Origin: Humibacillus sp. DSM 29435
GTDB taxonomy: Bacteria; Actinomycetota; Actinomycetes; Actinomycetales; Dermatophilaceae
Reading direction: 5' to 3'
Length of the DNA: 64,000 nt
Assembly: GCF_001758225.1 (NCBI RefSeq)
Contig: NZ_MAST01000023.1
Location: 1-64,000 of the forward strand
Shown here: piece after piece, positions 1,236 to 53,267 of the stretch
Position numbering within the stretch: position 1 is the first letter of the stretch
Layout of the letters: each line of letters opens with the position of its first letter
Notes under the pieces: generated by a model
Databases searched by the model: none
Told to the model about the DNA's origin: nothing
What the model saw: the letters and a program-made list of their open reading frames with translations, nothing else
Program-made: the position numbers and the translations under genes

Positions 1236-1237
1236 AC

Positions 1238-1850: not shown

Positions 1851-1883
1851 GGACGGGTATGGAGCGGTGGTTAAGCCGGTCTC

Positions 1884-1906
1884 GTTGTCCGCTTGTGGCG
1901 AACAAC
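1884..1906. promoter_or_regulatory. ClgR-type operator upstream of clpC
   Basis: A 23-base imperfect palindrome with core CGC-TTGTG-GCG at 1890-1900 and outer arms GTTGT / ACAAC. CGC-N5-GCG is the core recognised by ClgR, the activator of clp genes in Corynebacterium, Streptomyces and Mycobacterium. It lies about 30 bases upstream of the putative -35 of clpC, a suitable place for an activator. The clgR gene itself is not in this window. Confidence 0.65.
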
Positions 1907-1937
1907 TCGGAGACTTGAGCCCGCTGCGCTCAGGATG

Positions 1938-1963
1938 GGAACAGGAAAGCCGCCGACGTCGTT
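1938..1963 (+). promoter_or_regulatory. SigR/SigH-type promoter for clpC
   Basis: GGAAC at 1938-1942 and GTT at 1961-1963 are separated by 18 bases, fitting the GGAAT-N18/19-GTT consensus of the thiol-stress sigma factors SigR (Streptomyces) and SigH (Corynebacterium, Mycobacterium), whose regulons include clpC. A weaker TAGAAT -10-like hexamer lies at 1997-2002 without a clear -35. Confidence 0.5.
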
Positions 1964-2035
1964 GGTCGGGATGTGCTCGTCCACAGCGCGCACCGATAGA
2001 ATCGAGATATCTGCTCGATCAGTCAGGAGAAGAGC

Positions 2036-4648
2036 ATGTTCGAAAGATTCACCGACCGGGCCCGGAGGGTGGTTGTCCTCGCGCAGGAGGAAGCACGCCT
2101 GCTCAACCACAACTACATCGGTACCGAGCACATCCTCCTGGGTCTGATCCACGAAGGCGAAGGCGTCGCCGCGAAGGCCCTCGAGTCGCTCGACATCTCG
2201 CTCGAAGCGGTCCGGGCCCAGGTGCAGGAGATCATCGGCCAGGGCCAGCAGGCCCCGACCGGTCACATCCCCTTCACGCCCCGCGCGAAGAAGGTGCTCG
2301 AGTACTCGCTGCGCGAGGCGCTGCAGCTCGGCCACAGCTACATCGGCACCGAGCACATCCTGCTCGGCCTCATCCGCGAGGGTGAAGGCGTCGCCGCGCA
2401 GGTGCTCGTCAAGCTCGGCGCCGAGCTGAACAAGGTGCGCCAGCAGGTCATCCAGCTGCTCTCGGGCTACCAGGGCGGCCAGACCGGCGAGAAGGCCGGT
2501 GCCGGAGTCGGCGCGGCCCAGGGCGAGGGCACCCCCGCGGGGTCGCTCGTGCTCGACCAGTTCGGCCGCAACCTCACGCAGGCGGCCCGCGAGGGCAAGC
2601 TCGACCCGGTCATCGGGCGTGAGAAGGAGATCGAGCGCGTCATGCAGGTGCTGAGCCGACGCACCAAGAACAACCCGGTGCTGATCGGTGAGCCGGGTGT
2701 CGGCAAGACCGCCGTCGTCGAGGGCCTGGCCCAGGACATCGTCAAGGGCGAGGTGCCCGAGACCCTCAAGGACAAGCAGCTCTACACACTCGACCTCGGT
2801 TCGCTCGTGGCCGGCAGCCGCTACCGCGGTGACTTCGAGGAGCGCCTGAAGAAGGTGCTCAAGGAGATCCGCACCCGCGGCGACATCATCATCTTCATCG
2901 ACGAGATCCACACGCTCGTCGGGGCCGGCGCGGCCGAGGGTGCCATCGACGCAGCGAGCATCCTCAAGCCGATGCTTGCCCGCGGTGAGCTGCAGACGAT
3001 CGGCGCGACGACGCTCGACGAGTACCGCAAGCACATCGAGAAGGACTCCGCCCTTGAGCGGCGCTTCCAGCCGATCCAGGTGGCCGAGCCCACGCTGCCG
3101 CACACCATCGAGATCCTCAAGGGCCTGCGTGACCGCTACGAGGCCCACCACCGCGTCACCATCACGGATGCCGCTCTCGTGGCGGCCGCCAACATGGCCG
3201 ACCGTTACGTCAACGACCGTTTCCTGCCCGACAAGGCGATCGACCTCATCGACGAGGCGGGCGCGCGACTGCGCATCCGCCGGATGACCGCTCCGCCAGA
3301 CCTGCGCGAGTTCGACGAGAAGATCGCCGTGCTCGTTCGCGAGAAGGAGTCGGCCATCGACGGCCAGGACTTCGAGCGCGCGGCCCGGGCCCGTGACGAC
3401 GAGAAGCGCCTGCTGCGCGAGAAGTCCGAGCGCGAGGCGCAGTGGAAGTCGGGCGACATGGACGTCGTGGCCGAGGTCGACGAAGAGCTCATCGCCGAGG
3501 TTCTGGCGGCCAGCACCGGCATCCCGGTGTTCAAGCTGACCGAGGAGGAGAGCAGCCGCCTGCTGCACATGGAAGACGAGCTGCACAAGCGGATCATCGG
3601 TATGGACGAGGCCGTCAAGGGGCTCAGCCAGGCGATCCGTCGCACCCGTGCCGGCCTGAAAGACCCCCGTCGTCCCGGCGGCTCGTTCATCTTCGCCGGT
3701 CCGACCGGCGTGGGTAAGACCGAGCTGGCCAAGACGCTCGCCGAGTTCCTCTTCGGCAGCGAGGACGCCCTGATCCAGCTCGACATGTCGGAGTACTCCG
3801 AGAAGCACACGGTGAGCCGGCTGTTCGGCTCTCCTCCCGGCTACGTCGGCTACGAAGAGGGCGGCCAGCTCACCGAGAAGGTGCGGCGCAAGCCGTTCTC
3901 GGTCGTGCTCTTCGACGAGGTCGAGAAGGCCCACCCGGAGATCTTCAACTCGCTGCTGCAGGTGCTCGAAGACGGTCGCCTCACCGACTCTCAGGGCCGC
4001 ATGGTCGACTTCAAGAACACGGTCATCATCATGACGACCAACCTCGGCACCAGAGACATCTCCAAGACCTCGCTCGGCTTCTCGGCCGGGCCCGACACCC
4101 TCTCCGACTACGAGCGGATGAAGGCCAAGGTCATCGACGAGCTGAAGCAGCACTTCCGGCCCGAGTTCCTCAACCGCGTCGACGACACCATCGTGTTCCC
4201 GCACCTCAACCGGTCCGAGATCACGCAGATCGTCGACCTGGAGATCGCCAAGCTCGACAAGCGGCTCAAGGACAAGGACATGGGGATCGACCTCACGCCC
4301 GCGGCCAAGGACCTGCTCGCCCGGCGCGGCTACGACCCCGTGCTCGGTGCGCGTCCGCTGCGTCGCACCATCCAGCGCGAGATCGAGGACGCCCTGTCGG
4401 AGAAGATCCTCTACGCGGAGTTCGTCTCGGGGCAGTACATCAAGGTCGACACCGAGGGCGAGGGCAAGGCGGAGAAGTTCACCTTCTCCGACATGGCCCA
4501 CCCCGACTCGGCGCACCGGCCGTCCGACGACCTCGCCGAGATCGTCGACGGTCCCGCCCTCGACGACGCGCTCAGCGTGAACGTGACGAGCGGACCAGTT
4601 GTGCCTGACGACCGCTTCCCCGACAGCGCCATGGGTGGCGAGCGCTGA
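2036..4648 (+). CDS. clpC: ATP-dependent Clp protease ATP-binding subunit ClpC
   Basis: 870-residue AAA+ unfoldase that feeds substrates to the ClpP peptidase in the cytoplasm. Two Clp_N repeats fill the first 140 residues (both contain [12 protein letters not shown]). Walker A1 GEPGVGKT is near residue 218, followed by Walker [15 protein letters not shown]-like coiled segment lies at about 421-465, Walker A2 GPTGVGKT near 554 and Walker B2 [11 protein letters not shown] after it; the sensor region [16 protein letters not shown] closes the second module. The C-terminus is an acidic tail of roughly 50 residues, as in many actinobacterial ClpC. The ATG at 2036 has AGGAGA upstream. It is monocistronic: own promoter region upstream, strong hairpin after the stop. 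Confidence 0.97.
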
Positions 4649-4674
4649 CACCGAGGTAGGCAGGCGGACCGACC

Positions 4675-4711
4675 CGAAGGGGGCCGAGGACATCGTCCTC
4701 GGCCCCCTTCG
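4675..4711 (+). terminator. Hairpin terminator after clpC
   Basis: Perfect 17-base-pair stem with an ATC loop, CGAAGGGGGCCGAGGAC pairing with its complement, 26 bases after the clpC stop. The downstream tract is only weakly T-rich (GTGTTCCTTC), which is common for actinobacterial terminators. Confidence 0.8.
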
Positions 4712-4828
4712 GCGTGTTCCTTCACCTCGGATGCCGCAGAACCGTCATCCCGGGGTCGTACGCCGGTCGCACAGGAGCAGACCGTGGCCGGACGCGGCGG
4801 CCGGGCGGCGGCCACGAGAGTGGACGCC

Positions 4829-5695
4829 ATGAGCAACCACATCAGCCCTGACTGTTCCGACGCCCGGATGCCGCTGGGCGCGACCGGTGCCCAACGGCAT
4901 CCGAGCGCGTCAGCGACATCCACGCCGCTCGACCTCTTTGCCCGCAGCCTGGTCATGCGCTACGGCCGGGATGCGGCTGCTCCCCCCGCGCTCGGGGGGG
5001 TCGACCTGCGAATCACCGCAGGCGAGACGGTGGCCGTGATGGGCCCGTCCGGCTCGGGCAAGACGACGCTGCTGCACGTGCTCGCGGGCATCGCGGCACC
5101 GACCTCCGGCCAGGTGCTGTGGAAGGGGCTGGACGTGGCCCGGATGTCCGATCGCGACCGAACCTCGTTGCGCCGACGAGACTTCGGGTTCGTGTTCCAG
5201 CAGGGGATGCTGCTGCCCGAGCTGCCTGCCGTCGAGAACGTCGCCCTGCCCCTCATGATCGACGGAGCCCGCCGCGGTGAGGCGATGAAGCGGGCGCGGG
5301 CGTTGTTCGCTCCGCTCGGTCTCTCGGGTCTGGAGAGCCGGCGCCCGGGTGAGCTGTCGGGCGGGCAGGCCCAGCGCGTAGCCATCGCGCGAGCCCTGGT
5401 GGCCCGCCCCGGGGTGGTGTTCGCCGACGAGCCGACTGGCGCCCTCGACCAGACCACAAGCGCCGAGGTGATGGGTCACCTCACGGCGCTGCCCCGCCAC
5501 TCGGGAGCCTCGCTCGTGCTGGTGACCCACGACGAGAACGTTGCCGCATGGTGTTCTCGCACGATCAGTCTGCGCGACGGGCTGCTGACCAGCGACGTGC
5601 GCCGTGCACCCGTCACAGCATCGACTGCAACCGGCGCGACCGGCGCAACCGGCGCAACCGGCCCGGCGGCCACGACGTTCTCCGGGCGCTCCTGA
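4829..5695 (+). CDS. ABC transporter ATP-binding protein (MacB/LolD type)
   Basis: About 288 residues. It hydrolyses ATP to drive the partner FtsX-like permease encoded immediately downstream. Walker A GPSGSGKTT is near residue 72, the signature LSGGQAQRVAIARAL follows, then Walker B VVFADEPTGALD and the switch histidine in VTHDEN; the EPTGALD form is typical of the MacB/LolD/FtsE group. The first 45 residues are unconserved, so a start at 4957 (MRYGRD) is possible; the ATG at 4829 is chosen for a weak GAGAG upstream. The extreme C-terminus is a low-complexity GAT repeat from four 9-base tandem units (5627-5662). The stop codon overlaps the permease start (ATGA). The substrate cannot be told from sequence. 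Confidence 0.9.
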   Translation: MSNHISPDCSDARMPLGATGAQRHPSASATSTPLDLFARSLVMRYGRDAAAPPALGGVDLRITAGETVAVMGPSGSGKTTLLHVLAGIAAPTSGQVLWKGLDVARMSDRDRTSLRRRDFGFVFQQGMLLPELPAVENVALPLMIDGARRGEAMKRARALFAPLGLSGLESRRPGELSGGQAQRVAIARALVARPGVVFADEPTGALDQTTSAEVMGHLTALPRHSGASLVLVTHDENVAAWCSRTISLRDGLLTSDVRRAPVTASTATGATGATGATGPAATTFSGRS

Positions 5696-7026
5696 TGAGG
5701 GCCGCGCTGCAGCTGGCCTGGAGCCTCCGATCGGCGGGGGCCCGCGAGAACCGGGTGCCCGGCCTGCTCGCGGTGCTCGCGTTCGCGGTGGCCACGGCGG
5801 CCCTGCTCGTGTGTCTCGGCGGGCTCGGGGCCTTCGAGGCGCGGGGCGCCGTCACTGAGTCGGGCAGCCGCTACCTGTCGGCGTCCGACGCGGCCCAGCT
5901 CGCCGATCTCTACGTCACCCTCGCCTGGATCGCCACGACGTGCATGGTCGTGCCGATCCTCACCCTCGGAGGCGTGGCGGCCCGCCTCGCGATCGCGCGA
6001 CGGGACCAGCGCCTCGCAGCTCTACGCCTGGCGGGTGCGACGTCGGGGCAGGTGACGGTGATGACCCTGGCCGAGGCCGCCTTGCAGGCGCTGGTCGGCG
6101 CCGCGGCGGGAGTCGTGCTCTATGCCGTCTCCCTTCCCCTGGTCGCGAGGCTCACGTTCCAGGAGCGGCCGTTCGGCATCGGCGAGCTGGTGGTGCCGGC
6201 GTGGAAGCTGGCCGCGGTGCTGGTCGGTGTCGTGCTCGTGGCCGTCGTGTCGGGCCTGTCGAGCCTGGCCCGTGTGGTGATCAGCCCGCTGGGGGTCGCT
6301 GCTCGCACGAGTCCCAAACGACTCAGCGTGCTGCGGGTCGGTGTGGCTGTCGTCGCGTGTGTCGCCTGGGTGCTGGTCATCACCCCGATGAAGGCGCCGG
6401 AACGCGGTCTGATCGTGGTGCTGCTCGGTGCCGTCATCCTCGCGGTCAACGCCGTGGGCCCGTTCTTCGTCATGCTCGTCGGCAAGGTCATCGCCCGGTT
6501 CGCGCCCACGGCCACCACCTTGCTGGCGGCGCGGCGCATCGTCGACGACCCGAGGAGCACGTGGCGCGCGGTCGGCGCGTTGGGCCTGGCCATCGTCGTG
6601 GTCGGGTTCACCAGCGTGGTCAGCGCGGCCTCTCACGATGCGCCGGGTGACACCCTGGGGACCGACCTCGGCACGGGGGCGATGGTCACCCTGGCTGTCA
6701 TCACCATCGTCGGGGCCACCTCGACCGGGGTGGTGCAGGCCGCTCGGGTGCTCGACCAGCGCGAGCAGTACCGCTCCCTCTCCCTCGCGGGCACCAGCCT
6801 GCGCACGCTGCACCGGGCCCGCACCGTCGAGATCGCCCTGCCGCTCGCGGTCACCATGCTGGTCTCGGCCGGGTTCGTGCTGGCGCTCGTGCTGCCGTTT
6901 GCCAGCGCCCTGAACGGCGGTCTCGTCGTGCGGTTCGCGGTAGCGGTGGCGGCTGCCGGTGCACTGACGTTCGCCTCGGTGCTGTCGTCGCGGTCACTGG
7001 TGCGCCAGGCTGCGCTGGCCGGGTGA
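5695..7026 (+). CDS. FtsX-like ABC transporter permease
   Basis: 443-residue multi-spanning membrane protein, partner of the preceding ATPase. Its ATG overlaps that gene's stop by four bases, so the two are translationally coupled. Long hydrophobic helices begin near residue 20. The segment around RRDQRLAALRLAGATSGQV followed by LVGAAAGVVLYAV is the characteristic FtsX pattern, a cytoplasmic loop leading into a transmembrane helix, and a second related segment near the C-terminus (EQYRSLSLAGTSLRTLHR) repeats it. This is the duplicated FtsX arrangement of exporters handling lipids, peptides or antibiotics. The frame is open further upstream, but that part shadows the ATPase gene. No regulator is adjacent. 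Confidence 0.88.
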   Translation: MRAALQLAWSLRSAGARENRVPGLLAVLAFAVATAALLVCLGGLGAFEARGAVTESGSRYLSASDAAQLADLYVTLAWIATTCMVVPILTLGGVAARLAIARRDQRLAALRLAGATSGQVTVMTLAEAALQALVGAAAGVVLYAVSLPLVARLTFQERPFGIGELVVPAWKLAAVLVGVVLVAVVSGLSSLARVVISPLGVAARTSPKRLSVLRVGVAVVACVAWVLVITPMKAPERGLIVVLLGAVILAVNAVGPFFVMLVGKVIARFAPTATTLLAARRIVDDPRSTWRAVGALGLAIVVVGFTSVVSAASHDAPGDTLGTDLGTGAMVTLAVITIVGATSTGVVQAARVLDQREQYRSLSLAGTSLRTLHRARTVEIALPLAVTMLVSAGFVLALVLPFASALNGGLVVRFAVAVAAAGALTFASVLSSRSLVRQAALAG

Positions 7027-39918: not shown

Positions 39919-40491
39919 TCAGTGCACCGCGCTGCCTCGGCGGCGCCACCATCCGAGGACCCCCATGACCGCCCGGCCGGCGGGCTTGGCCACGGCTGCC
40001 GTGTCGGGCAGGTAGCCCATCTGCTGCATGGTGCTGGCGGCGTCGAAGTAGAAGTGGTCCTCCTTGAGCCGGCCGTTTCGCATCTCGACCATGCTCATGG
40101 CTCGGATCTCCAGGCGACGGCCGCTCGCCGGGAGGCCGAACATCGACCCGAGGTGCGTGCCCCGGATGACGTACTCCTCTGCGACGTACCTGCCCCTGGG
40201 CACCCGCAGGGTGACCTCGAGCTCGAGATCGGGAAGGGCCCGGAAGAGGCTCTCCAGAAAGGCGCGCACGGCAACCTTGCCGTCGTAGACCTCACCCATG
40301 GCGATGTTCCGCCAGACGATGTCGTCCTCGTACCGCTCGAGCATCGCCGCGATGTCGCCGCGGTTCCAGTGCGGCAAGACGCTGCTGAAGGCGTCGACGT
40401 TGGCCTGCTCGTGGGCGAGCAAGGCCACCGATGGCCCCCATTCAGGCTCAACGGAGAGCGAGGGCGCGGTTGCTGTCGTGGTGGTTGTCAT
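39919..40491 (-). CDS. NTF2-like (SnoaL/limonene-epoxide-hydrolase-type) protein
   Basis: 190 residues. The N-terminus is an oddly Thr-rich MTTTTTATAPS, then an NTF2-like cone fold: NVDAFSSVLPHWNRGDIAAMLERYEDDIVWRNI, VRAFLESLFRALPDLELEV, EYVIRGTHLGSMFGLPASGRRLEIRAMSMVEMRNGRLKEDHFYFD. These match the SnoaL-like ester-cyclase/isomerase group. It is divergent from the SCP2-ACAD cluster and may belong to the same pathway. An in-frame upstream extension passes through the inverted repeat at 40519-40548, so the ATG at 40491 is preferred. Confidence 0.85.
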   Translation of the reverse strand: MTTTTTATAPSLSVEPEWGPSVALLAHEQANVDAFSSVLPHWNRGDIAAMLERYEDDIVWRNIAMGEVYDGKVAVRAFLESLFRALPDLELEVTLRVPRGRYVAEEYVIRGTHLGSMFGLPASGRRLEIRAMSMVEMRNGRLKEDHFYFDAASTMQQMGYLPDTAAVAKPAGRAVMGVLGWWRRRGSAVH

Positions 40492-40613: not shown

Positions 40614-41009
40614 GTGGGCGTTTTCACCAGCAAGCAACAGGCCACCTCGGTGTTCACCACCTTGTTCGGCATCCTGCTCGACGACGAACGGTTCGCCAGC
40701 ACCGTGCGCAAGGAGAACCTCTCCGTCCAGTTCTTCCACTCCGACCCAGACCTGACCGTCTACGTCAGCGCAGACGGGGTGTGGATCGACGAAACGCCAT
40801 CGGCACCAGTCATCTCGATCAAGATGTCCTGCGACAACGCCGATGCGCTCTGGTCCGGACGACTCCTCATGCCGATCGCCCTGGCCACCCGCAAGATCCG
40901 GATCAAGGGCAGCGTCGCCAAGGTCATCGAGTTCGTCCCGCTGCTGCAACCCGCCTTCGACCGGTATCCGTCCATCGCCGCCCAGGCCGGCGTCGGGGCG
41001 GGGGCATGA
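40614..41009 (+). CDS. SCP2-like sterol/lipid-binding protein
   Basis: 131 residues, GTG start. SCP2 fold: VFTTLFGILLDDERFASTVRKENLSVQFFHSDPDLTVYVSADGVWID, then a DALWSGRLLMPIALATRKIRIKGSVAKVIEFVPLL segment. Such proteins bind fatty acyl chains, acyl-CoA or sterols. First gene of the plus-strand cluster; its stop overlaps the start of the acyl-CoA dehydrogenase (ATGA), so the two are coupled. The C-terminus ends GVGAGA, not a di-Gly, so it is not an obvious ubiquitin-like substrate for the ThiF protein of the same cluster. Confidence 0.82.
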   Translation: MGVFTSKQQATSVFTTLFGILLDDERFASTVRKENLSVQFFHSDPDLTVYVSADGVWIDETPSAPVISIKMSCDNADALWSGRLLMPIALATRKIRIKGSVAKVIEFVPLLQPAFDRYPSIAAQAGVGAGA

Positions 41010-42241
41010 TGCACATGGCCCAGCTCGCCGCGCCGAGCGCCACAGACGCCCCCACCCTCACCACCCTTCCCGCCGAGACGCTCGCCCTGCGAGACACCGT
41101 CCGCGCCTGGGCCAACGAGCGGCTGGCTCCGCACGTCCGTCGGCTCGACGAGGACGACGCGGCGGCCTTCGACTGGGACCTCGTGCGAGAGGGCCACAAC
41201 CTCGGCCTGACCCGGCTCGTCGTGCCCAAGCAGTTCGGTGGGCTCGGACAGGGCGAGTTCGGAGTCGCGGTCGCCCTCGAGGAGCTGGCCGCCATCGATG
41301 CCGGCTTCGCGCTCATCTTCGGTGCCACCATGCTCGGTCAGGCGCCGGTACTTCTCTCTGGAGACCCGCGCCTCCAGGCGAGGTTCCTGCCGCTCTTCTG
41401 CGGCGACGAACCCGTGCTCGCCTGCAACGCGATCACCGAGGACCAGGCCGGCTGCGACCTGCTCATCCCCGAGAACGCCCAGTTCGCGCAGGGCGTCATG
41501 CGCGCCCGCCGCGAGGGAGACCACTACGTGCTCGACGGGTCGAAGAAGTTCATCACCAACGGCAAGGTCGCGACGTACGCCACGGTGTTCGCCAACATGG
41601 AGGGACACCCCGGCGCTACCGGCCTGACGTGCTTCGTCGTCATGCTGGACCGGCCGGGGGTCACCCTCGGAGACGTCGCAGACAAGATGAGCTACCGCTC
41701 CTGCCTCGGCACCGAGATGCACTTCGACCACGTCATCGTGCCGGAGGAGAACGTCGTCGGCGGCGAGGGCGGCGGCGTCTACATCAACGTCCAGCAGATG
41801 AACATGGCCCGGGCCGCGGTCGCCGCGATCTCTACCGGCGTCGCCCGGGGAGCCCTCGAACAAGCCATCGAGTGGGCGGGGAAAAGGGTCCAGGGCGGGA
41901 TGCCCCTGCGCAAGCACCAGTTCACGGCCCGAAAGCTTGCCGAGATGTCGGCCAAGGTCGATGCCGCGCGGATGCTCTACCTCAGGGCGGCGCACCTCGC
42001 GGACAACGAGATCCCCGCCCCCGCCTACGAGCCGGCCGTGGCCAAGCTGTTCGCCGACAGGATCGCCATCGAGGTCGCCACGGAGGCCATGGGCTTGATG
42101 GGAGCGCGCGGCTACCTGCGCGACCACGGCATGGAGAAGCGGCTACGCGACGCCCTCGGGGCCCGGATCTACGAAGGCACCCCCGAGGTGCTCGCCCTCG
42201 CTGTGACCGAGGCCATCTACGACGACGACGACGACTTCTGA
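41006..42241 (+). CDS. Acyl-CoA dehydrogenase
   Basis: 411 residues, FAD-dependent. The N-terminal helical domain (ALRDTVRAWANERLAPHV) is followed by CNAITEDQAGCDLL, the FAD-contacting strand YVLDGSKKFITNGKVA, and the C-terminal helices with the flavin-contacting region and YEGTPEVLALAV, whose Glu is in the position of the MCAD catalytic base. It introduces a 2,3-double bond into an acyl thioester, either CoA- or carrier-bound. The start overlaps the SCP2 stop. The very acidic C-terminus (YDDDDDF) is unusual. Placement with SCP2, ThiF and MmpL genes suggests a biosynthetic rather than beta-oxidation role. Confidence 0.93.
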   Translation: MMHMAQLAAPSATDAPTLTTLPAETLALRDTVRAWANERLAPHVRRLDEDDAAAFDWDLVREGHNLGLTRLVVPKQFGGLGQGEFGVAVALEELAAIDAGFALIFGATMLGQAPVLLSGDPRLQARFLPLFCGDEPVLACNAITEDQAGCDLLIPENAQFAQGVMRARREGDHYVLDGSKKFITNGKVATYATVFANMEGHPGATGLTCFVVMLDRPGVTLGDVADKMSYRSCLGTEMHFDHVIVPEENVVGGEGGGVYINVQQMNMARAAVAAISTGVARGALEQAIEWAGKRVQGGMPLRKHQFTARKLAEMSAKVDAARMLYLRAAHLADNEIPAPAYEPAVAKLFADRIAIEVATEAMGLMGARGYLRDHGMEKRLRDALGARIYEGTPEVLALAVTEAIYDDDDDF

Positions 42242-42331
42242 TCGCCTGCGCCGACCACGCCTGTCCACCGACGGCTCGACCACCACCCCCCACCCACAAC
42301 CCACCGACAACTCACAGACAAAGGACCCGCC

Positions 42332-43240
42332 ATGTGCCACGACGCTTCCGGCGAACGCGGAGCGCGGTATGCCGCCGACGTCGTCTCGCTGCATCGCAAC
42401 CTCAGCTTCAGCGCCCTGCTCAGCCAGGTCGACCCGCGCCACCTCATCCACGTGGCCGAGCGCGGCGACGGCCTGCTCACCGTGGCCCTGCAGACCCAGC
42501 ACCTGCCGCACCGCTACCTCGTGGGGCTGCAAGGCTTCCGGCTGGCCCAGTACCTCCAGCTCGGCTGGATCTGCGAGGACGTCATGTACTCCTCAGCCAT
42601 CTTCTGCGAGCCGGTCGACGCGGTGCACCCCCAGGACGTGCACGTCATGACGATGTCCGGCTCCGGGGCGATCCTGGGCTACCTGGCGCTCGCCGGACCG
42701 GCTGAGGGTGATCCCGCCGACCTGCTCGATCCCGACCGCGGCCGCTTCCCCGTCGAGCAGGCTCACAACATCAACCTCTTCGACCACGTCGCCGGCCAGC
42801 CCGGGGTGCGCACCGACCAGGTACGTGAGCTCAAGCGATTCGTCCACGCTCGCACCGTGTCCGACCGCACCCAACGACTACGGATCACCCTCGAGCTGCT
42901 CTTCGGGATGGGACAGGTGCTGGCCCGCATCACCCCCGCCGTCCGGACTCTCGTCGGAGACGTCGAGGAGAACGTCGCCCTGCGTCACCTGCTGCTCGCC
43001 GGCCTCGACGTCAAGCTCATCGAAGGCACGACGCCGCGCCTGACCGAGCAGGATCTGCTCCGCCACGCCTACGTGCAGCGTTCCAGCGTCAAGCCCTTCG
43101 TCGCGCACCTGCCCAGCGAGGAGGAGGTCCAGCAGCGGATCTCCATGCTCGAGTCCACCCTCGACTCGCCAGACCTCTTCGACGCAACGGGCAGAATGTC
43201 GAGGTCGCAGCGCGGCATCCTGACCCGAGTGTCCGGATGA
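42332..43240 (+). CDS. Unrecognised protein, possible GNAT/autoinducer-synthase-like acyltransferase
   Basis: 302 residues. I do not recognise a named family. AAAGGA precedes the ATG. The middle part (VHVMTMSGSGAILGYLALAG, then RFPVEQAHNINLFDHV and VRELKRFVHARTVSDRTQRLRITLELLFGMGQVLARITP) has the strand-then-helix order of GNAT-like folds such as LuxI- and FeeM-type N-acyl synthases; this is weak pattern recognition. A C-terminal helical segment (LPSEEEVQQRISMLESTLDSPDLF) follows. It is 90 bases after the acyl-CoA dehydrogenase and four bases before the VWA gene. Structure prediction would be needed to settle its class. Confidence 0.35.
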   Translation: MCHDASGERGARYAADVVSLHRNLSFSALLSQVDPRHLIHVAERGDGLLTVALQTQHLPHRYLVGLQGFRLAQYLQLGWICEDVMYSSAIFCEPVDAVHPQDVHVMTMSGSGAILGYLALAGPAEGDPADLLDPDRGRFPVEQAHNINLFDHVAGQPGVRTDQVRELKRFVHARTVSDRTQRLRITLELLFGMGQVLARITPAVRTLVGDVEENVALRHLLLAGLDVKLIEGTTPRLTEQDLLRHAYVQRSSVKPFVAHLPSEEEVQQRISMLESTLDSPDLFDATGRMSRSQRGILTRVSG

Positions 43241-43244
43241 CGTG

Positions 43245-44951
43245 ATGAGCTCCTCCCGACACGCACATCGCACCCCGCCGCGGTTCGGTGTCGCCACCCC
43301 CAGGGTCCTTGCCGCGGCCGCGAGCCTCGCCCTGCTGGTGCTGCTCGGCGCCACACTCACCCGCATCGCCTTCGGGAGCAACGAGACGACTGCGAGCTGC
43401 GGCCAGCAGCTGCCGCAGCTACGCGTCGCTGCCGCCCCCGCCATCGCCCCGGTGGTCGCCGCCCTCGGGCACGATCTGCTCGGCGGTTCCGCGGCGCCCG
43501 ACTGCTTCGATGTCGCCGTCCGGTCGGTCGACGCGCGGGCCGAGATCCAGTCCCTCGCAGACGGCGCGACGCGACCGCCCGATGTGTGGATCCCCGACTC
43601 GACGCTCTGGATCGACCGCGCCGGCGTCGAGCGGGTGGCCAAGGCGACCAACGCGGCCTCCGTCGCCAGCAGCCCTCTCGTCATCGCCGTGCCGAGCCGA
43701 GAGGCCGATCGACTGCGTGGCACAGGTATGACAGAGACCATGCCCCGTCCCACCGTGGCCGACCTCGCCGTAGCCACCGCCCAGGGCGACCCCTTCACCA
43801 TCGAGCTGTCCGACCAGAAACTGTCACCGACCCGAGTCGGCACCATTCTGGCCCTGACCGAGGCGACCCGAGGAACGCCCGACGCGCGCGCCTCACTCAC
43901 CGCCCTGCTCCGCAGCGCCCGCGTCACCACAGACCCGACCACCACACGGCTGACGTCTCTTTCACCGACCGCTAGCGTCGGGGTACCGGCATCTGAGCAT
44001 GACGTCTGGGCCGCCCGCCACGACAGCTCCTCAGCGCGACCGGTCGCGATCTACACCGGCGGGGGGGGCTTCGACTTCCCGTATGCCGTGCTGACCACCG
44101 ACCCGGCCACCACCCAGCGGGCCCAACGACTGTTCGACCTTCTCACCAGCGCCCCGGGACAGAGCCGGTTGAAGGCCTCCGGCCTCCGAGACGTCAACGG
44201 GGTCGGAGGGCCCGCGCTCGCCGCCGACCGGGGCGTCGATGGCACAACGAAGATCACCCCGGCCCCCCTGAGCCCACCGTCACTGGCCCAGGCCGAGAAG
44301 GTGCTCGCGACCTCCACCCAAGACGCTCGACTGCTCGCCGTCATGGACATCTCCGGCTCGATGGCCTGGGGCGTGGGCGGCCGCGACACGGCTGGACCCT
44401 CACGTCTGGCCATCGCCACCCGGGCCGCGGCCACCGGCCTGGGGCTCTACCCCCCCAGCACCGAGGTGGGCTTCTGGGTCTTCTCCAAGGACATCGCCGG
44501 CAGCCGCGACTACCGCGAGGTCGCACCCGTGACCCGGCTCGACGCACCTGGCTTCCGCTCCGCACTCACGAGCGCACTGACGCAGGCCGCACCCACGCCG
44601 GGTGGGGACACCGCGCTCTACGCGACGACCCTCGCCGCCGTGCGACAGATGGGCACACACTGGCAACCCGGACGCGTCAACGCCGTGGTGCTCCTCTCGG
44701 ACGGCAAGAACACCGACACCGACGGACCGACGCTCAGCCACGTCGTCTCCGCACTGGAGGCACAGGGCCGCTCGTCCACCCCTGTCCCTGTCATCACCAT
44801 CGCCTTCGGCCCGCAGGGCGACGCGGTCTCACTCGCCGCCATCAGCAAAGCCTCCGGAGGCGCGACCTACCGGGCCAGCACGGCCGACCAGGTGCGACAG
44901 ATCTTTCTCGACGCGGTCGGTCAGCGGGCCTGCCGTCCCAACTGCACCTGA
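43245..44951 (+). CDS. Secreted substrate-binding plus VWA domain protein
   Basis: 568 residues. A hydrophobic segment (VLAAAASLALLVLLGATL) at about 20-40 serves as signal or anchor, so the rest is probably outside the cell. About 50-340 resembles a periplasmic binding protein (LPQLRVAAAPAIAPVVAAL, DVWIPDSTLWIDRAG). A von Willebrand A domain starts near 365 with an intact MIDAS: MDISGS (DxSxS), GGDTALYAT (Thr) and LLSDGKNTDTDG (Asp). The C-terminus has a Cys pair (RACRPNC). Such proteins bind partners through a metal; the partner is unknown. An in-frame GTG one codon upstream (43242) is possible. Confidence 0.88.
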   Translation: MSSSRHAHRTPPRFGVATPRVLAAAASLALLVLLGATLTRIAFGSNETTASCGQQLPQLRVAAAPAIAPVVAALGHDLLGGSAAPDCFDVAVRSVDARAEIQSLADGATRPPDVWIPDSTLWIDRAGVERVAKATNAASVASSPLVIAVPSREADRLRGTGMTETMPRPTVADLAVATAQGDPFTIELSDQKLSPTRVGTILALTEATRGTPDARASLTALLRSARVTTDPTTTRLTSLSPTASVGVPASEHDVWAARHDSSSARPVAIYTGGGGFDFPYAVLTTDPATTQRAQRLFDLLTSAPGQSRLKASGLRDVNGVGGPALAADRGVDGTTKITPAPLSPPSLAQAEKVLATSTQDARLLAVMDISGSMAWGVGGRDTAGPSRLAIATRAAATGLGLYPPSTEVGFWVFSKDIAGSRDYREVAPVTRLDAPGFRSALTSALTQAAPTPGGDTALYATTLAAVRQMGTHWQPGRVNAVVLLSDGKNTDTDGPTLSHVVSALEAQGRSSTPVPVITIAFGPQGDAVSLAAISKASGGATYRASTADQVRQIFLDAVGQRACRPNCT

Positions 44952-44973
44952 GCACACCGAAAGGACCAGCTCG

Positions 44974-45891
44974 ATGACCGTCACCCAGAGCCAGACCGAG
45001 AGCGCCACCGGCGCTCAGCAGTTCTACGCCCAGCTCACCGAGCGCAACCAGGGCTTCGTCTCCGAGCGGGCGCAGCGGCGGCTCTCCGAGGCCGTGGTCC
45101 TCGTCGCCGGTTGCGGTTCGACCGGCGGCGCGGCCGTCGAGCCACTGGTGCGGATCGGGGTGCAGCACTTCCTGTTGGCCGACGTGGGTCGCTACGAGCT
45201 CAACAACCTCAACCGGCAGAACGCCTATCTGGCCGAGCTCGGCGAACACAAGGCGGTCGTCTGCGCTCGCCGGATCGACCAGGTCAACCCGTCGGCGACC
45301 ACCGAGATCCATGAGCAGGGGGTCACCACCGACAACGTCAACGACCTGGTGTCGCGGTGCGACATCGTCATCGACGGCGTCGACGTCACCGAGCCATCAG
45401 GGTGGCGAGCAAAGTTCGCGCTGCACGAGGCGGCGGCGAGTCAGGGCAGGCCCGTTGTGTCCGGCTACGACATGGCGGGCACCCAGTACGTCCGGTTCTA
45501 CGACTACTCACCGGGCGACGCGCCCTTCGACGGCGCCGTGCACCCCGACGACGTGGCGGGCGGAACGATCACGTGGGACCTGCTGAGGCGGGTCGTGCCC
45601 ATGCGCTTCGTCCCCATCGAGATGATCGACCTGGCCCGGGCTCGGGTCCGCGACGGCGACGACGGCCTCTCTCAGGTCGTCTACGCATCCCTGGCCTTCG
45701 GTGCCATCTCGTCACGGATCGTCCTGGCCCTCATGGAGGGCCAGGCGGTCCGCAGACACACCGTGGTCAACGTCGACTCGGCGGTTCGCCCCCCCTGGGC
45801 CAACCTGCTGGTCGCGGCCCGCAAGCCGCTGGCCGCGGTGCTGGCCCTGCGCGACCTGGCAGGGCTGCGGCGAGCGGCACGCCGTGGTTGA
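44974..45891 (+). CDS. ThiF-family E1-like adenylyltransferase
   Basis: 305 residues, preceded by AAAGGA. The Rossmann nucleotide-binding loop is VAGCGSTGGAAVEPLVRIGV near residue 46, then LLADVGRYELNNLNRQNAYL with the conserved Asp and the Arg of the NLNRQ motif. ThiF/MoeB/E1 enzymes adenylate a C-terminal glycine of a ubiquitin-like or peptide carrier, or activate small carboxylates. No obvious catalytic cysteine or zinc-binding CxxC pairs follow, so it may adenylate without forming a thioester. No ThiS/MoaD-like partner or JAMM protease is nearby. Its 3' end overlaps the MmpL start by eight bases. Confidence 0.88.
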   Translation: MTVTQSQTESATGAQQFYAQLTERNQGFVSERAQRRLSEAVVLVAGCGSTGGAAVEPLVRIGVQHFLLADVGRYELNNLNRQNAYLAELGEHKAVVCARRIDQVNPSATTEIHEQGVTTDNVNDLVSRCDIVIDGVDVTEPSGWRAKFALHEAAASQGRPVVSGYDMAGTQYVRFYDYSPGDAPFDGAVHPDDVAGGTITWDLLRRVVPMRFVPIEMIDLARARVRDGDDGLSQVVYASLAFGAISSRIVLALMEGQAVRRHTVVNVDSAVRPPWANLLVAARKPLAAVLALRDLAGLRRAARRG

Positions 45892-48235
45892 CCGGTTCGT
45901 ACGGGGCCTCGGCCGCTGGCGCTGGGCCATCACCGGGGCCTGGGTCGTCGCACTGGTCGTCGCGGGCGTGGTCAGCGTGCCGCTCCCGAGTCTCTTGAGC
46001 GGCGGCGGCTGGTCGGTCGACGGCTCCGACAGTGCGACCGTTCAGGCCGACCTCGCACACGGCTTCGTGGGCCGGGGTACCAGCGATGTGATGGTCGTCG
46101 TCGTCGACCACTGGTACACCAGCGACCAGCCCGGGTTCGCCAAACGAGTGGGCCGCGTCATGAACGACGTCGGCCACGACCGGGGCCTCTCGGTGCGCGA
46201 CCAGGTCGGTTTCTCGACGACGACCGGGCCCCTGCAGCAACGCTTCGTCGGCAAGGACGGACGTACCGCGATCGACCAGCTGGGCCTCGACCTCGAGGAC
46301 GGCACGGCCCGGCGGGTGCTGCCCCAGATGCAGTCCGAGGTCTCGAGTCGCTTCGCCGGCCAGGGCCTCGACGTGACCCTGGTCGGCACGGCCGCCTTCT
46401 GGGGAGCGGTCAACACCCTCAGCGAGGAGGGCCTCGTCCATGCCGAGATGCTGACCTTCCCGCTGATTCTGGTCGTCCTTGTCGGCCTCTTCGGCGGCCT
46501 GGTGGCGGCCTTGGTCTCGCTGGCCGTCGGTGCCACGGCGATCCTGGCGAGCTTCGCCGTGCTCACGGTGCTGGCCGGGCATCTGGAGCTCTCGCTCTTC
46601 GTGCAGAACACCGCCACGATGCTCGGCCTCGGCGTGGGAATCGACTACTCCCTGTTCGTCATCGCCCGGTTCAAGGAGGAGCTCGGACGCGGGAGCACGG
46701 TCGATGATGCACTCGCCACGACCCTGCGCACGTCAGGCGAGACCGTCCTGTTCTCCGGGATCACCATCCTGGCCGCGATGAGCACCCTGTTCCTCGTTCC
46801 GCTCGGGGTGGTCTTCTCGATCGCTCTCGGTGCGGTGGTCGTCGTCGCGTTCTCGGTGCTTGCCTCGCTGCTCCTGCTGCCGGTGCTCCTGCGGCTGCTC
46901 GGGCACCGGATCTCCGCGGGGCGCGTCCCCCTTCTCGGCGCCGGCGCCAGGCGAGGTGCCCACCGCGAACCTCCCATCCGGGGGGCCCATCGTCCCCCCC
47001 ACCTGACCCGCTGGGAACGGGTCGCGCACCGGGTGATGGCTCGGCCCCTCGTGTTCCTCGGGCTCGGGCTCATCCTGCTGCTGACTCTCGCTGCCCCGGC
47101 TCGGTCGTTGACGACGTTCACCCCGGACGCCCAGATCGTGCCTCAGAGCTCGCCGGTGCGGGTGGGCTTCGACCGCGTGCAGGATCAGTTCGGCACGGGA
47201 ACGACCGCTCCGATCCAGGTACTGGTGACGGCTCCGCGCCCGATCACCACGCGAGCGGATGCCGCTGCGCTGGTTCAGCTCGAGCGACGCCTGGCGGCGC
47301 TGCCGTCCGTCGCCCGAGTCGAGTCCGCCCTGCCCGTACTCGCGCTCGCCTCCCCCGTGGCACCGTTCGGCGCGTTGCAGGCCGGCGCCCGCGAGGCCCT
47401 GCCCAGCGGCATCCGCGGCCTGGTGGGGCACTACGTCTCATCGGACGCGACGAAGATGATCTTCGACGTGGTGCCGACGGGGCACGCCGCCGATGCGCAG
47501 ACCAGCGACCTGCTGGGCAGGGTGCATCTCGTGGTGGACGAGTCGTCGATCCCGGGCGCTCGGATCCTGGTGGGCGGCGAGACCGCTCAGGGGATCGAGA
47601 GCAACGCGGTGATCTCGGACCGGCTTCCGGTCGTCGTCGGCGTAATGCTGGTCGTGATCTACCTACTGCTGCTCGTGACCTTCCGCTCGATCTTGTTGCC
47701 GCTCAAGGCGATCCTGATGAACCTCGTCTCTGTGGCGGCCACGTTCGGCGTTCTCGTCATCGTCTTCCAGCACGGGGTGGGCTCGAGCCTGCTCGGCGCC
47801 GAGGGCAGCGGCCATATCCAGAACTTCGTGCCCATCCTGCTGCTCACGCTCCTGTTCAGCCTGAGCACCGACTACGAGGTGTTTCTGTTGAACCGGGTGC
47901 GGGAGGAGTTCGTGAAGACCGGTGACAACACCCGCAGCGTCGCGGTCGGCATGTCGAGCACGGCTCCCCTGATCTCTGGGGCTGCACTGCTGATGGTGGT
48001 CGTCTTCGGCTCCTTCGCCCTCGCCGGCATCCTGCCGATCAAGCAGCTCGGGTTCGGCATGGCGGTGGCCATTGCCATCGACGCGACGATCGTGCGGCTC
48101 GTGCTCGTTCCGGCCACCATGCGGCTCATGGGCGTCTGGAACTGGTGGATGCCGGGACGGCCCCGGCCCGGGGTCATCGCCCGACACCTGGGTCGGGTTG
48201 CCGACCCTGCTGGCGGGATCGCTGAAAGAGGCTGA
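45884..48235 (+). CDS. MmpL-family RND transporter
   Basis: 783 residues with the duplicated RND/MMPL layout. The first membrane helix is GAWVVALVVAGVVSVPLPSLL; the two proton-relay motifs GIDYSLFVIARFKEEL (about 251) and STDYEVFLLNRVREEF (about 660) each have the conserved Asp-Tyr pair. A large extracellular loop lies after helix 1 and another at 400-560. MMPL proteins export lipids and lipid-linked small molecules across the actinobacterial membrane. The GTG at 45884 is used because VVDRFVRGLGRWRW resembles the family start; it overlaps the ThiF stop. It is the last gene of the cluster. Confidence 0.92.
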   Translation: MVDRFVRGLGRWRWAITGAWVVALVVAGVVSVPLPSLLSGGGWSVDGSDSATVQADLAHGFVGRGTSDVMVVVVDHWYTSDQPGFAKRVGRVMNDVGHDRGLSVRDQVGFSTTTGPLQQRFVGKDGRTAIDQLGLDLEDGTARRVLPQMQSEVSSRFAGQGLDVTLVGTAAFWGAVNTLSEEGLVHAEMLTFPLILVVLVGLFGGLVAALVSLAVGATAILASFAVLTVLAGHLELSLFVQNTATMLGLGVGIDYSLFVIARFKEELGRGSTVDDALATTLRTSGETVLFSGITILAAMSTLFLVPLGVVFSIALGAVVVVAFSVLASLLLLPVLLRLLGHRISAGRVPLLGAGARRGAHREPPIRGAHRPPHLTRWERVAHRVMARPLVFLGLGLILLLTLAAPARSLTTFTPDAQIVPQSSPVRVGFDRVQDQFGTGTTAPIQVLVTAPRPITTRADAAALVQLERRLAALPSVARVESALPVLALASPVAPFGALQAGAREALPSGIRGLVGHYVSSDATKMIFDVVPTGHAADAQTSDLLGRVHLVVDESSIPGARILVGGETAQGIESNAVISDRLPVVVGVMLVVIYLLLLVTFRSILLPLKAILMNLVSVAATFGVLVIVFQHGVGSSLLGAEGSGHIQNFVPILLLTLLFSLSTDYEVFLLNRVREEFVKTGDNTRSVAVGMSSTAPLISGAALLMVVVFGSFALAGILPIKQLGFGMAVAIAIDATIVRLVLVPATMRLMGVWNWWMPGRPRPGVIARHLGRVADPAGGIAERG

Positions 48236-51404: not shown

Positions 51405-53267
51405 GTGAGCGGTCAGCCGCGGTCGGGAACGACGCCGTGGTCGGGCTCGCAACGCACCCCTCTTCGGGTGTTCGTGCAGACCGAGACCGGGAGCAGCGTG
51501 CTGCTGCTGCTCGCGGCCCTCGTGGCGATCGGTTGGGTGGCGATCGACCCGAGCTCGTACCAGGCGTTGTGGCAGACGCCCCTCGGGGTGCGGTTGGGGG
51601 CCTTCGAGCTGGGCCAGGATCTTCGTGGGTGGGTCAACAACGGCTTGATGACCTTCTTCTTCCTGGTCATCGGCCTCGAGGCCCGCCGCGCCTTCGACGT
51701 CGGCGACCTGCGCGAGCGGCGCCGGGTGCTGCTGCCCGTGCTGGCCGGGACCGGGGGGATGCTCGCCTCGGTCGGTATCTACCTGGCCCTCAACGCCGGA
51801 AGCCCGGCCGCGAGCGGTTGGGGCGTCGCGTTGTCCACCGACACCGCCTTCGCCCTGGCGCTGCTGGCGGTGGCGCGGGCCCGCCCGCTGCAGCCGCTCC
51901 GGGCGTTCCTGGTGACCGTGGTCGTGGTCGATGACCTCGTCTCGCTGCTCGTCATCGCAGCGGTCTACAGCGGCCCGGTGAGCATCGGCCCCCTGGTGGC
52001 CGGGGTCGGCGTGTTCGGGCTGATCTGTCTGACGGTCTGGCTGCAGGTGCGGGTCGGCGTCTGGTATCTGCTCGCCGGTGTCGTGGCCTGGGCGTGCCTG
52101 TTCGTGTCCGGGCTGGACCCGCTCATCGTCGGGCTCGCCCTGGGGCTGTTGTCGTACGCCCTGCCGGTCAGCACGGACGCGCTCGAGGGTGCCACGACCC
52201 GGATGAGGTCGTTCCGCGAGCAGCCGACCTCCGAGCTGGCTCGGGACGCCCACCGCAGCCTGTCGTTGGCGGTCACCCCGAACGAGCGGCTGCAGCTGGT
52301 GTTCCATCCGTGGTCGAGCTACGTCATCGTGCCCCTGTTCGCGCTCGCGAACGCCGGCATCCCCATCAACGGGCACAGTCTCGGCCAGGCCCTACGCTCG
52401 CCCATCGCGGTCGGGATCACGCTCGCGTACGTGGTCGGGAAACCGCTCGGCATCCTGGGCGCATCGTGGCTGACCCGTACGCTCAGCGGGCGTCGACTCG
52501 AGCCGCCGGTCGGCTGGGCCGCTGTGCTGGGCGGCGGCACCAGCGCCGGCGTCGGTTTCACCGTGTCGCTGCTGATCGCGACCCTGGCCTTCGAGGGCGA
52601 GCAGCAGACCGACGCGAAGATCGGCATCCTCGCCTCGGCGGCGATCTCGGCGGTCATGACCGTGCTCGTCTTCCGTGGGATCGCAACGCTGCCCGCTCGG
52701 CTACGTGCTCGGGCCGTCTTCGGCAGCCTGCCTCCGCTGACCGATCTCACCGAACCGGTCGACCCCGAGCACGACCACATCCGAGGAGACGCTGACGCGC
52801 CCGTGACCCTGCTCGAGTACGGAGACCTGGAATGCCCGTACTGCGGGCAGGCCGAGCCAGCGGTCCGCGAGGTACTGGCCAGCAACACCGACATCCGCTA
52901 CGTCTGGCGCCACCTACCGCTGCGCGACGTGCACCCCCACGCCGAGCTCGCCGCCGAGGCGAGCGAGGCCGCCGCGAACCAGGACCGGTTCTGGGAGATG
53001 CACGACCGGCTGCTGGCCCACCAGGACGACCTCGAGCCCAAAGGCCTGATCGGCCACGCCGACGCTCTCGGGCTCGACGTCGAACAGTTTCGCCAAGATC
53101 TGCGCCGGCACACCGCCGCCGCCCGGATCGCGGCCGACGTCGAGGGCGCCGCCGAGAGCGGGGTGCGGGGAACCCCGACCTTCTTCATCAACGGTCGTCG
53201 CCACCACGGGGTGTACGACCTGGAGGCGCTGCTGGCCGGCATCCGAGAGGCCCGGGAACGAGAGTGA
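51405..53267 (+). CDS. NhaA Na+/H+ antiporter fused to a DsbA-like thioredoxin domain
   Basis: 620 residues, GTG start. The first 430 are NhaA: GLMTFFFLVIGLEARRAF, STDTAFALALLAVARAR with the first conserved Asp (about 143), and VVVVDDLVS (about 172) with the adjacent ion-binding Asp pair. After a short linker the C-terminal 170 residues are a thioredoxin-fold DsbA-like domain: LLEYGDLECPYCGQ has the active-site CPYC and GTPTFFINGRRHHG the cis-Pro loop. This fusion is known in actinobacteria. If the domain is outside it may form disulfides in extracytoplasmic proteins; which side of the membrane it faces is not determined here. GTG 51405 is the first plausible start. Confidence 0.94.
   Translation: MSGQPRSGTTPWSGSQRTPLRVFVQTETGSSVLLLLAALVAIGWVAIDPSSYQALWQTPLGVRLGAFELGQDLRGWVNNGLMTFFFLVIGLEARRAFDVGDLRERRRVLLPVLAGTGGMLASVGIYLALNAGSPAASGWGVALSTDTAFALALLAVARARPLQPLRAFLVTVVVVDDLVSLLVIAAVYSGPVSIGPLVAGVGVFGLICLTVWLQVRVGVWYLLAGVVAWACLFVSGLDPLIVGLALGLLSYALPVSTDALEGATTRMRSFREQPTSELARDAHRSLSLAVTPNERLQLVFHPWSSYVIVPLFALANAGIPINGHSLGQALRSPIAVGITLAYVVGKPLGILGASWLTRTLSGRRLEPPVGWAAVLGGGTSAGVGFTVSLLIATLAFEGEQQTDAKIGILASAAISAVMTVLVFRGIATLPARLRARAVFGSLPPLTDLTEPVDPEHDHIRGDADAPVTLLEYGDLECPYCGQAEPAVREVLASNTDIRYVWRHLPLRDVHPHAELAAEASEAAANQDRFWEMHDRLLAHQDDLEPKGLIGHADALGLDVEQFRQDLRRHTAAARIAADVEGAAESGVRGTPTFFINGRRHHGVYDLEALLAGIREARERE

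Follow-up and report, generated by a model that had tools for sequence, protein, structure and literature searches.

Related biosynthetic pathways

The lipothrenins are made by a siderophore-lipid pathway of Streptomyces, encoded by the lit cluster of Streptomyces aureus LU18118, in which deletion of litL abolishes lipothrenins 1-14, deletion of litM leaves only the L-Thr form, and deletion of litJ has only minor effects, with the acyl chains unchanged (PMC10616846). The same authors call the role of LitL vague, report dehydro side products and propose a dehydration for LitM, not an oxazolone (PMC10616846). In a second group of pathways, an acyltransferase, a ThiF-type cyclase and a flavin oxidase together make oxazolones, and one of their clusters, tyz, adjoins mmpL9 in mycobacteria (PMC10404671, PMC12856293). 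The stieleriacine, thalassotalic acid and kyonggic acid clusters of Pseudomonadota and Planctomycetota, as far as the available portions of their descriptions go, also combine an N-acyl amino acid synthase with a ThiF protein and a nitroreductase or other oxidoreductase; the nitroreductase stands where the locus described here has an acyl-CoA dehydrogenase (ACAD), and neither an MmpL nor an SBP-VWA protein is named in those portions (PMC12479983, PMC7293339). Two other candidates were set aside: paulomycin biosynthesis also has a ThiF protein and an ACAD, but the ThiF, in the available part of its description, is MoeZ-like and accompanied by a cysteine desulfurase, and the 'ThiF' of thiolutin is the name of a methyltransferase and irrelevant here.

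Organization of the locus

The window, the whole 64,000-nucleotide stretch analysed from Humibacillus sp. DSM 29435, carries six tightly packed genes on the forward strand, at the positions given in the original prediction. They encode a small SCP2-fold protein (LitI-type, 40614..41009; assigned through family PF02036 and predicted structure), an ACAD (LitJ-type, 41006..42241; Pfam PF00441/02770/02771 above cut-off), protein X (LitL-type, 42332..43240), which has a predicted GNAT fold and is a likely N-acyl amino acid synthase, a fusion of SBP_bac_11 and VWA domains (43242..44951; both above the Pfam cut-off), a ThiF/E1-like adenylating enzyme (LitM-type, 44974..45891; PF00899, E = 2.5e-28) and an MmpL-type RND exporter (45884..48235; PF03176, E = 1.4e-74). 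Within the run, adjacent genes overlap by 4 and 8 bases or are separated by gaps of 90, 1 and 22 bases. All six genes are present as predicted, but the conserved unit begins at a divergent SnoaL-like gene on the reverse strand (39919..40488; PF07366, E = 3.1e-23), which had been omitted. A locus in another genus (L003) holds the same six genes and the divergent SnoaL-like gene in identical order between different flanks, so the six-gene set is not a product of chance; the SBP-VWA gene of L003 is split over two frames. Searches of the window with Rfam (at the gathering threshold) and for tRNAs gave no matches, and a scan for sigma-70 promoters found none. No clean empty site was found; a genome of the same genus (G001) has both flanks at 83-86%, on different contigs.

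No named pathway with exactly this set of genes had been recognised at first; that view is not supported, as the core corresponds to litI-litJ-litL-litM of the lipothrenin cluster (PMC10616846). Likeness to lit was judged through a relative, L063, not through the lit sequence ON169987 itself. L063 encodes AMP ligase, RNR-like, ACP, GDSL, GMC, SCP2, ACAD, X, ThiF, AurF and DUF4873 proteins of 573/326/87/227/539/123/420/310/300/311/103 aa, in that order, against 573/326/88/228/539/124/421/311/297/311/110 for the corresponding lit proteins (PMC10616846), and where lit has litK its ORF is 132 aa long, not 85. The window shares with lit, as seen through L063, an SCP2-type protein, an ACAD, LitL/X and a ThiF protein of the same order and size, with identities to the L063 proteins of 40% for X, 63% for the ACAD, 46% for ThiF and 25% for the SCP2 protein. 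In contrast, the unit is without the FAAL, ACP, KAS III, GMC, AurF N-oxygenase and DUF4873 proteins of the lit cluster, has an MmpL exporter where lit has an MFS protein, and adds the SBP-VWA and SnoaL proteins. No FAAL, ACP or AurF-type N-oxygenase was detected among the six products or the five neighbours tested (SnoaL, AKR, GTP cyclohydrolase, SLAC1 and esterase). As judged through L063, the core is shared with lit, and the export side here differs.

With OxzAB, TyzACB and TrzAS the window shares the plan of an acyltransferase, a ThiF-like enzyme and a flavin desaturase. The desaturase, however, is a nitroreductase-family oxidase in those pathways and an ACAD here, no nitroreductase-family desaturase being found by Pfam beside or fused to ThiF in the unit, and the SCP2 protein is additional. 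X has no detectable sequence relation to the two TrzA-like acyltransferases with which it was compared (hhalign Prob 0.3 of 100).

Conservation of the core genes

The order SCP2-ACAD-X-ThiF is the same in 19 of the 20 loci examined, with the SBP-VWA gene inserted between X and ThiF in the window and L003, and the core is thus conserved beyond this strain. Among 44 chosen genomes, the cassette ACAD (E <= 1e-100, at most 41 ACAD candidates scored per genome) and ThiF (E <= 1e-30) occurred in all 17 with X and in none of the 27 without it, which marks the core members as cassette-type proteins rather than paralogues. The distance matrices of the four core proteins correlate across 19 loci (Spearman 0.70-0.92), and for each of the six pairs none of 500 permutations reached the observed value, although shared host history is still included in these correlations. 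We conclude that the four core genes are a conserved unit. That the six neighbours have no common function is therefore extremely improbable: every one of the domains is common on its own, but the conserved order and the co-occurrence contradict this explanation for the four core genes, the case being weaker for the SBP-VWA gene alone (2/20 loci). Neither a lack of conservation nor a housekeeping family for X, the two outcomes that would have told against the original prediction, was found.

X gave the first impression of an orphan. A search with its single sequence in 97 relatives returned one match (G033) besides its own genome, and the same type of search found none in 396 genomes of the phylum, on plasmids or on viral contigs; a second query, from L058, likewise had no plasmid match. 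Profile searches overturned this impression. A five-row profile run against the class (394 genomes) found, besides the own genome, only weak matches in G378, G731 and G793 (E 0.002-0.009), and two further weak matches lay in genus g81 (G1251 and G1168). Across Actinomycetota, the same cassette appears in five or more cluster contexts, which differ in their tailoring and export genes. A midpoint-rooted tree, from which L064 was left out, unites the window with L003, L051 and the two lit-like loci at a support of 0.98.

Predicted fold and reaction of protein X

Protein X has no match in Pfam or NCBIfam at E <= 1, in PADLOC at E <= 0.01 or, by sequence, among solved PDB chains at E <= 1. Its AlphaFold model (pLDDT 77.4, pTM 0.81) is predicted to adopt a GNAT fold. 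In VIA comparisons, ranks 1-10 were AHL synthases and FeeM (Z 12.1-13.2, 170-188 residues aligned), including BjaI (Z 13.2, rmsd 3.3, 186 aligned), LasI (Z 12.6) and FeeM (Z 12.4, rmsd 3.5, 179 aligned), with ElaA at Z 12.0 (147 aligned) and the LuxI-type EsaI at Z 10.6; rows within 1 Z count as tied, and these synthases lead the other GNATs by about 1 Z unit. Foldseek placed AHL synthases at ranks 1-7, and FeeM was not among the best 50 matches listed. The structure comparison thus tentatively places LuxI-type synthases and FeeM nearest to the product of 42332-43240, by a small margin, in agreement with the faint N-acyl-synthase character originally suspected. X nevertheless differs from the FeeM and LuxI families in having no sequence match to them and in carrying about 45 extra N-terminal residues beyond the aligned range. 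The LuxI motif is ExxRF, and X carries E166-L-K-R169-F, in which E166 is kept in 20/20 members and R169 in 19/20, the F being variable.

We consider it likely, from the model, that X N-acylates an amino acid. Since X has no detectable sequence relation to the two TrzA-like acyltransferases or, at E <= 1, to any solved chain, this step rests on the predicted fold together with one published deletion, that of litL. For the LitL family, hitherto unassigned, a fold is thus predicted and a probable reaction suggested.

The ThiF-like enzyme

Residues R81, K93, D134 and D137 are invariant in all 20 cassette ThiF proteins, and in the window protein ThiF is the only Pfam domain. Carboxylates are the substrates of known ThiF relatives, and the predicted role as an activating enzyme is supported in the sense of carboxylate activation. 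The adenylation-motif residue D137 aligns with an Asp of four TrzS homologues and so appears to correspond to Asp217, the adenylation-motif Asp given for TrzS (PMC10404671, PMC12856293), a residue common to ThiF enzymes in general. In NCBIfam the enzyme scored 92 bits against generic ThiF models and 72 bits against the TrzS family, and its identity as an oxazolone cyclase therefore stays putative.

The best of these NCBIfam scores belong to sulfur-carrier ThiF models, all below cut-off, and would fit a true E1 or sulfur-transfer enzyme, with the cluster serving to tag a peptide or to form a thiocarboxylate. Zinc-binding CxxC pairs mark the sulfur-transfer E1s (ThiF/MoeB), yet no CxxC occurs in any of the 20 cassette proteins, the only Cys conserved throughout is C47 of the glycine loop, and no ThiS/MoaD-like protein is encoded by the six genes, so that we regard this role as very unlikely. 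A defence role was also considered and rejected: PADLOC E1-E2 models match ThiF (best E 3e-15), but Pfam finds no E2 or JAB domain among the six products.

The ACAD and the SCP2-fold protein

The catalytic glutamate of the ACAD (E390, in YEGT) is kept, and all 19 ACADs with a full-length sequence in the fetched loci have YEG(T/S). Of the 14 X-positive genomes of genus g81, 13 have cassette ACADs with 61-68% identity to the window ACAD, and the fourteenth, G1132, has one with 53%. ACADs normally act on acyl-CoA, and this, with the retained Glu, would suit an enzyme that works on the acyl chain, giving an alpha,beta-desaturated fatty amide, and not on the amino acid. Such a substrate seems to us rather unlikely, because the litJ deletion left the acyl chains unchanged (PMC10616846) and the presence of the cassette-type ACAD follows that of X in the 44 genomes; desaturation of the chain before it is joined, as first envisaged, finds no support here. 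As the effects of the litJ deletion were minor, an essential role of the ACAD is not supported in the lit pathway.

Pfam gave no SCP2 match for the first protein of the window alone. However, PF02036 matches 15/20 members of its family at E <= 0.1 (best 2e-7), the family profile finds the SCP2 chain 4jgx (E 2.9e-6), and the predicted structure (pLDDT 90.7) has SCP2 4jgx_B as its best Foldseek match (E 5e-6); these three lines of evidence bear out the SCP2 assignment.

Proposed pathway

The operon probably, though not with assurance, makes and exports a modified N-acyl amino acid on a lipothrenin-type cassette. X would acylate the amine of an amino acid with an acyl group taken from an acyl thioester, as the predicted fold and the disappearance of every product when litL is deleted suggest, and ThiF would adenylate the resulting N-acyl amino acid at its carboxylate. 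If ThiF works as OxzB, TyzB and TrzS do, attack of the amide oxygen on the activated carboxylate could then yield a 5-oxazolone, a ring with an acidic alpha proton. The alpha carbon of the activated ring might be epimerised, or the ring dehydrogenated across Calpha-Cbeta with the ACAD, unless another enzyme makes the change at these carbons; the greasy intermediate may be held by the SCP2-fold protein, and the product, open or still cyclic, would leave through MmpL. The SBP-VWA protein would act outside, in this lineage only.

Alternatively, in line with what the lipothrenin authors propose for LitM, ThiF might be a dehydratase or epimerase acting on N-acyl threonine without an oxazolone, the product being a plain N-acyl threonine lipid. 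The litM deletion and the dehydro side products (PMC10616846) argue for this, as does the position of the window cassette nearest L051 and the lit-like clade. Nevertheless, only Calpha changes configuration between L-Thr and D-allo-Thr, an inversion that on chemical grounds an oxazolone would explain without water leaving and returning at Cbeta, and the carboxylate chemistry of ThiF relatives also speaks against it; we consider this alternative unlikely. The oxazolone offers a testable alternative for the unexplained LitM epimerisation.

More tentatively, and on balance doubtfully, the ACAD-family enzyme may dehydrogenate an oxazolone that ThiF forms from an N-acyl amino acid, convergently replacing the nitroreductase oxidase of Oxz/Tyz/Trz, with an SCP2-fold carrier and dedicated MmpL export. 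Should an oxazolone prove to be the substrate of the ACAD, the same chemistry would have recruited two unrelated families of flavoenzymes.

Genes of the export side

Asp-Tyr pairs carry protons in MmpL3, and the window MmpL (P0006) has such transmembrane pairs at positions 254 and 663 as well as the MMPL domain, which supports its predicted function as exporter. An MmpL is also present in L003, L051 and L064, and the MmpL form of the cassette parallels tyz beside mmpL9 in mycobacteria.

The SBP-VWA protein has a hydrophobic N-terminal segment, judged by eye, and a DxSGS MIDAS motif (DISGS at 369). Its gene lies in only two of the 20 fetched loci, those of the window and L003, whereas the family is common elsewhere (25/58 genomes, G000 and G033 included), and it therefore looks like an accessory gene, a lineage-specific addition. 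Of the six-gene unit originally proposed, the SCP2-ACAD-X-ThiF core is thus conserved, while the SBP-VWA gene is apparently accessory. At the corresponding position in L003 lies DNA with 80% identity to the SnoaL-like gene, and a homologue is also present in the rearranged cluster of L064.

Organization of the six-gene operon

The six ORFs of the original prediction were all found in place at 40614-48235 (+), encoding in order an SCP2-type protein, an acyl-CoA dehydrogenase (ACAD), protein X (42332-43240), an SBP-VWA protein, a ThiF-like enzyme and an MmpL protein; neighbouring ORFs overlap by 4 and 8 bases or are separated by gaps of 90, 1 and 22 bases, a spacing that fits a single operon. 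Pfam clearly assigned four of the six products. X had no family match in Pfam, NCBIfam or PADLOC, and the SCP2 protein of the window, searched alone, gave no SCP2 match. PF02036 was matched by 15 of 20 relatives of the latter (E ≤ 0.1), the profile of its family found the SCP2 chain 4jgx among solved chains (E 2.9e-6), and its AlphaFold model (pLDDT 90.7, pTM 0.82) gave the same Yarrowia SCP2 as best Foldseek match (4jgx, E 5e-6). The cluster is a real, conserved and probably biosynthetic operon.

A SnoaL-like gene at 39919-40488 (-), divergent from the cluster, is kept beside it in L003 (the related locus described below) and is present in locus L064; it probably belongs to the system. Elsewhere in the window, 51405-53267 (+) appears by eye to encode an Na+/H+ antiporter of the NhaA type carrying a fused DsbA/thioredoxin-like domain at its C-terminus.

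Relationship to the lipothrenin cluster

We regard the operon as a new form of the N-acyl amino acid cassette of lipothrenin type that has an MmpL/SBP-VWA export side. The published table for the lipothrenin (lit) cluster of Streptomyces aureus LU18118 lists litI (SCP2-type, 124 aa), litJ (ACAD, 421), litK (85), litL (311), litM (ThiF, 297), litN (diiron oxygenase, 311) and litO (DUF4873, 110) (PMC10616846). One X-containing locus, L063, carries the same series of genes, beginning with the AMP ligase and running to DUF4873; the domains agree and the lengths are nearly identical, except that the litK position is occupied by an ORF of 132 aa rather than 85; judged through L063 and this table, X therefore very probably belongs to the LitL family. 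When the core proteins (SCP2, ACAD, X and ThiF; L064 left out) were joined and their tree was rooted at its midpoint, the window grouped with L003, L051 and two lit-like loci, with support of 0.98. According to the lipothrenin paper, deletion of litL abolished lipothrenins 1-14, the authors describing their own interpretation of LitL as vague; the litM mutant retained the L-Thr compound alone, and deletion of litJ had minor effects, with acyl chains unchanged (PMC10616846). Among the matches listed from open-licence PMC articles, no paper joined ACAD, ThiF and oxazolone, and none placed the cassette outside lipothrenin.

Predicted fold of X

An AlphaFold prediction from five sequences gave a model of X with pLDDT 77.4 and pTM 0.81 (five models, range 41.9-77.4), for which Foldseek ranked the AHL synthases TofI, BjaI and LasI at positions 1-7, FeeM being absent from the best 50 matches listed. 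The original prediction had proposed comparing the product with LuxI, FeeM and other GNATs, and VIA-align, with rows up to 1 Z apart counted as tied, gave Z 13.2 for BjaI (rmsd 3.3, 186 aligned), 12.6 for LasI (3.6, 182), 12.4 for FeeM (3.5, 179), 12.0 for ElaA (2.7, 147) and just 10.6 for the LuxI-type EsaI, other GNATs scoring lower than ElaA. The predicted GNAT fold is thus firm; the LuxI/FeeM-type subclass is a lead, because AHL synthases come top by a small margin over ElaA and scores up to 1 Z apart count as ties. Across 20 X sequences ten positions never vary; these comprise the first Met and, among others, R70, H104, E142, E166 and D210. The stretch E-L-K-R-F presumably resembles a LuxI motif. 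X had no sequence match among solved chains.

A possible oxazolone mechanism

As described for the Oxz, Tyz and Trz pathways, an acyltransferase acts with a ThiF-like enzyme and a flavin oxidase to convert amino acids into N-acyl oxazolones (PMC10404671, PMC12856293); the cassette has the same three enzyme kinds, its ACAD standing where those pathways use a nitroreductase oxidase. The parallel extends to the MmpL of the window cluster, since tyz is reported to adjoin mmpL9 (PMC10404671, PMC12856293). An oxazolone would render Cα acidic, so that with LitM L-Thr could turn into D-allo-Thr with Cβ untouched, and the dehydrobutyrine by-products would arise by loss of the hydroxyl. By this analogy we infer that an oxazolone may account for the action of LitM, for which the lipothrenin authors prefer dehydration (PMC10616846). 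The cassette ThiF retains the adenylation-motif aspartate present in four homologues of TrzS, the ThiF-like enzyme of Trz, and the YEG(T/S) glutamate is retained in 19/19 ACAD proteins. Sulfur transfer by ThiF is disfavoured, because C47 is the sole Cys conserved in all 20 cassette ThiF proteins and a CxxC motif occurs in none of the 20. Against the oxazolone stand the minor litJ phenotype, the lower score of ThiF on the TrzS family and the missing sequence link between X and the acyltransferase TrzA, X matching neither of two TrzA-like proteins compared with it. Stieleriacines are treated in PMC7293339 and PMC12479983.

Distribution, linkage and origin of the cassette

A profile search found X in three of 186 genomes of the window's family, the window's own genome having a single copy. 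The second, G033 (81% complete), belongs to a different genus, and its contig is identical letter for letter to JAKDLQ010000020.1 (Micrococcales bacterium isolate 43_S57). Its locus, L003, is the sole other full cluster seen, with the six genes and the divergent SnoaL-like gene in the window's order and different flanks; identities to the window are 83% (X), 92% (ACAD), 75% (ThiF) and 89% (SCP2). The SBP-VWA gene of L003 (6675-8362) spans two reading frames, and may be broken or misassembled. The third, G498, is distant, and has SCP2, ACAD, X and ThiF in the window's order, followed by genes for an oxygenase, a transporter of the MFS type and an amidase-like protein.

A ThiF profile search of genome contigs found Streptomyces sp. 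WM6386 (L007) and Nocardiopsis sp. CC223A (L008), besides the G033 record. An X profile built from five rows matched 16 of 392 genomes of genus g81 at E ≤ 0.01; the 14 strong ones (E < 1e-20) hold 15 loci, all taken, and the two weak ones were dropped. We take g81 to be Streptomyces (plasmid records matching L054 are Streptomyces in 15 of 25, those matching L063 in one of only two). With the window, L003, L005, L007 and L008 this makes 20 loci, and the order SCP2-ACAD-X-ThiF is unchanged in 19 of them; conservation beyond this strain, on which the original prediction turned, was thereby seen for this core. The exception, L064, has SCP2, ACAD, ThiF, X, MmpL, SnoaL and a hydrolase, rearranged. 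In the L064 cluster, which lies at 941-6721, a Hydrolase_4 protein sits between ThiF and SCP2, and residues 709-792 of the 1098-aa MmpL ORF match Cupin_2 below the cut-off.

Among 44 genomes of known X status, both cassette-type ACAD (E ≤ 1e-100; scoring covered up to 41 candidates in each genome) and cassette-type ThiF (E ≤ 1e-30) occurred in 17/17 X-positive and 0/27 X-negative genomes, the latter (20 of g81, seven of the window's family) being a non-random choice from the X-profile search lists. Pairwise distances of the four core proteins correlate at 0.70-0.92 over 19 loci, to which common descent of the hosts contributes.

In G001, of the window's genus, the cluster flanks lie at 83-86% identity on separate contigs, C69 and C179 (L085, L086), without the cluster, and cassette X, ACAD and ThiF are all absent from this genome. 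GC per kb is alike in the cluster (65-71%) and its surroundings (67-72%). Because its spread is patchy, the cluster may have been gained horizontally.

Genomic contexts of the core

The MmpL context is shared by the window, L003, L051 and L064. The SBP-VWA gene is in two of the 20 fetched stretches, window and L003, and its family is widespread in relatives (25/58 genomes, the window's own and G033 among them). The loci without MmpL have an oxygenase with MFS (L005, L007, L008, L050 and L061; for L007 and L061 Pfam gives TauD), MFS with KAS II (L055-L060), an amidase-like protein (L052-L054) or AurF (L063 by Pfam, L062 by similarity to L063). Related clusters at L007 10946-17999 and L005 3302-7984 have a TauD-type oxygenase (by Pfam for L007), an MFS exporter and an amidase-like protein, that of L007 also, on reading the sequence, ACP, KAS II and KAS III; they perhaps make a different product class with the same core. 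One genome, G1037, carries two cassettes of different context types (L053 and L055).
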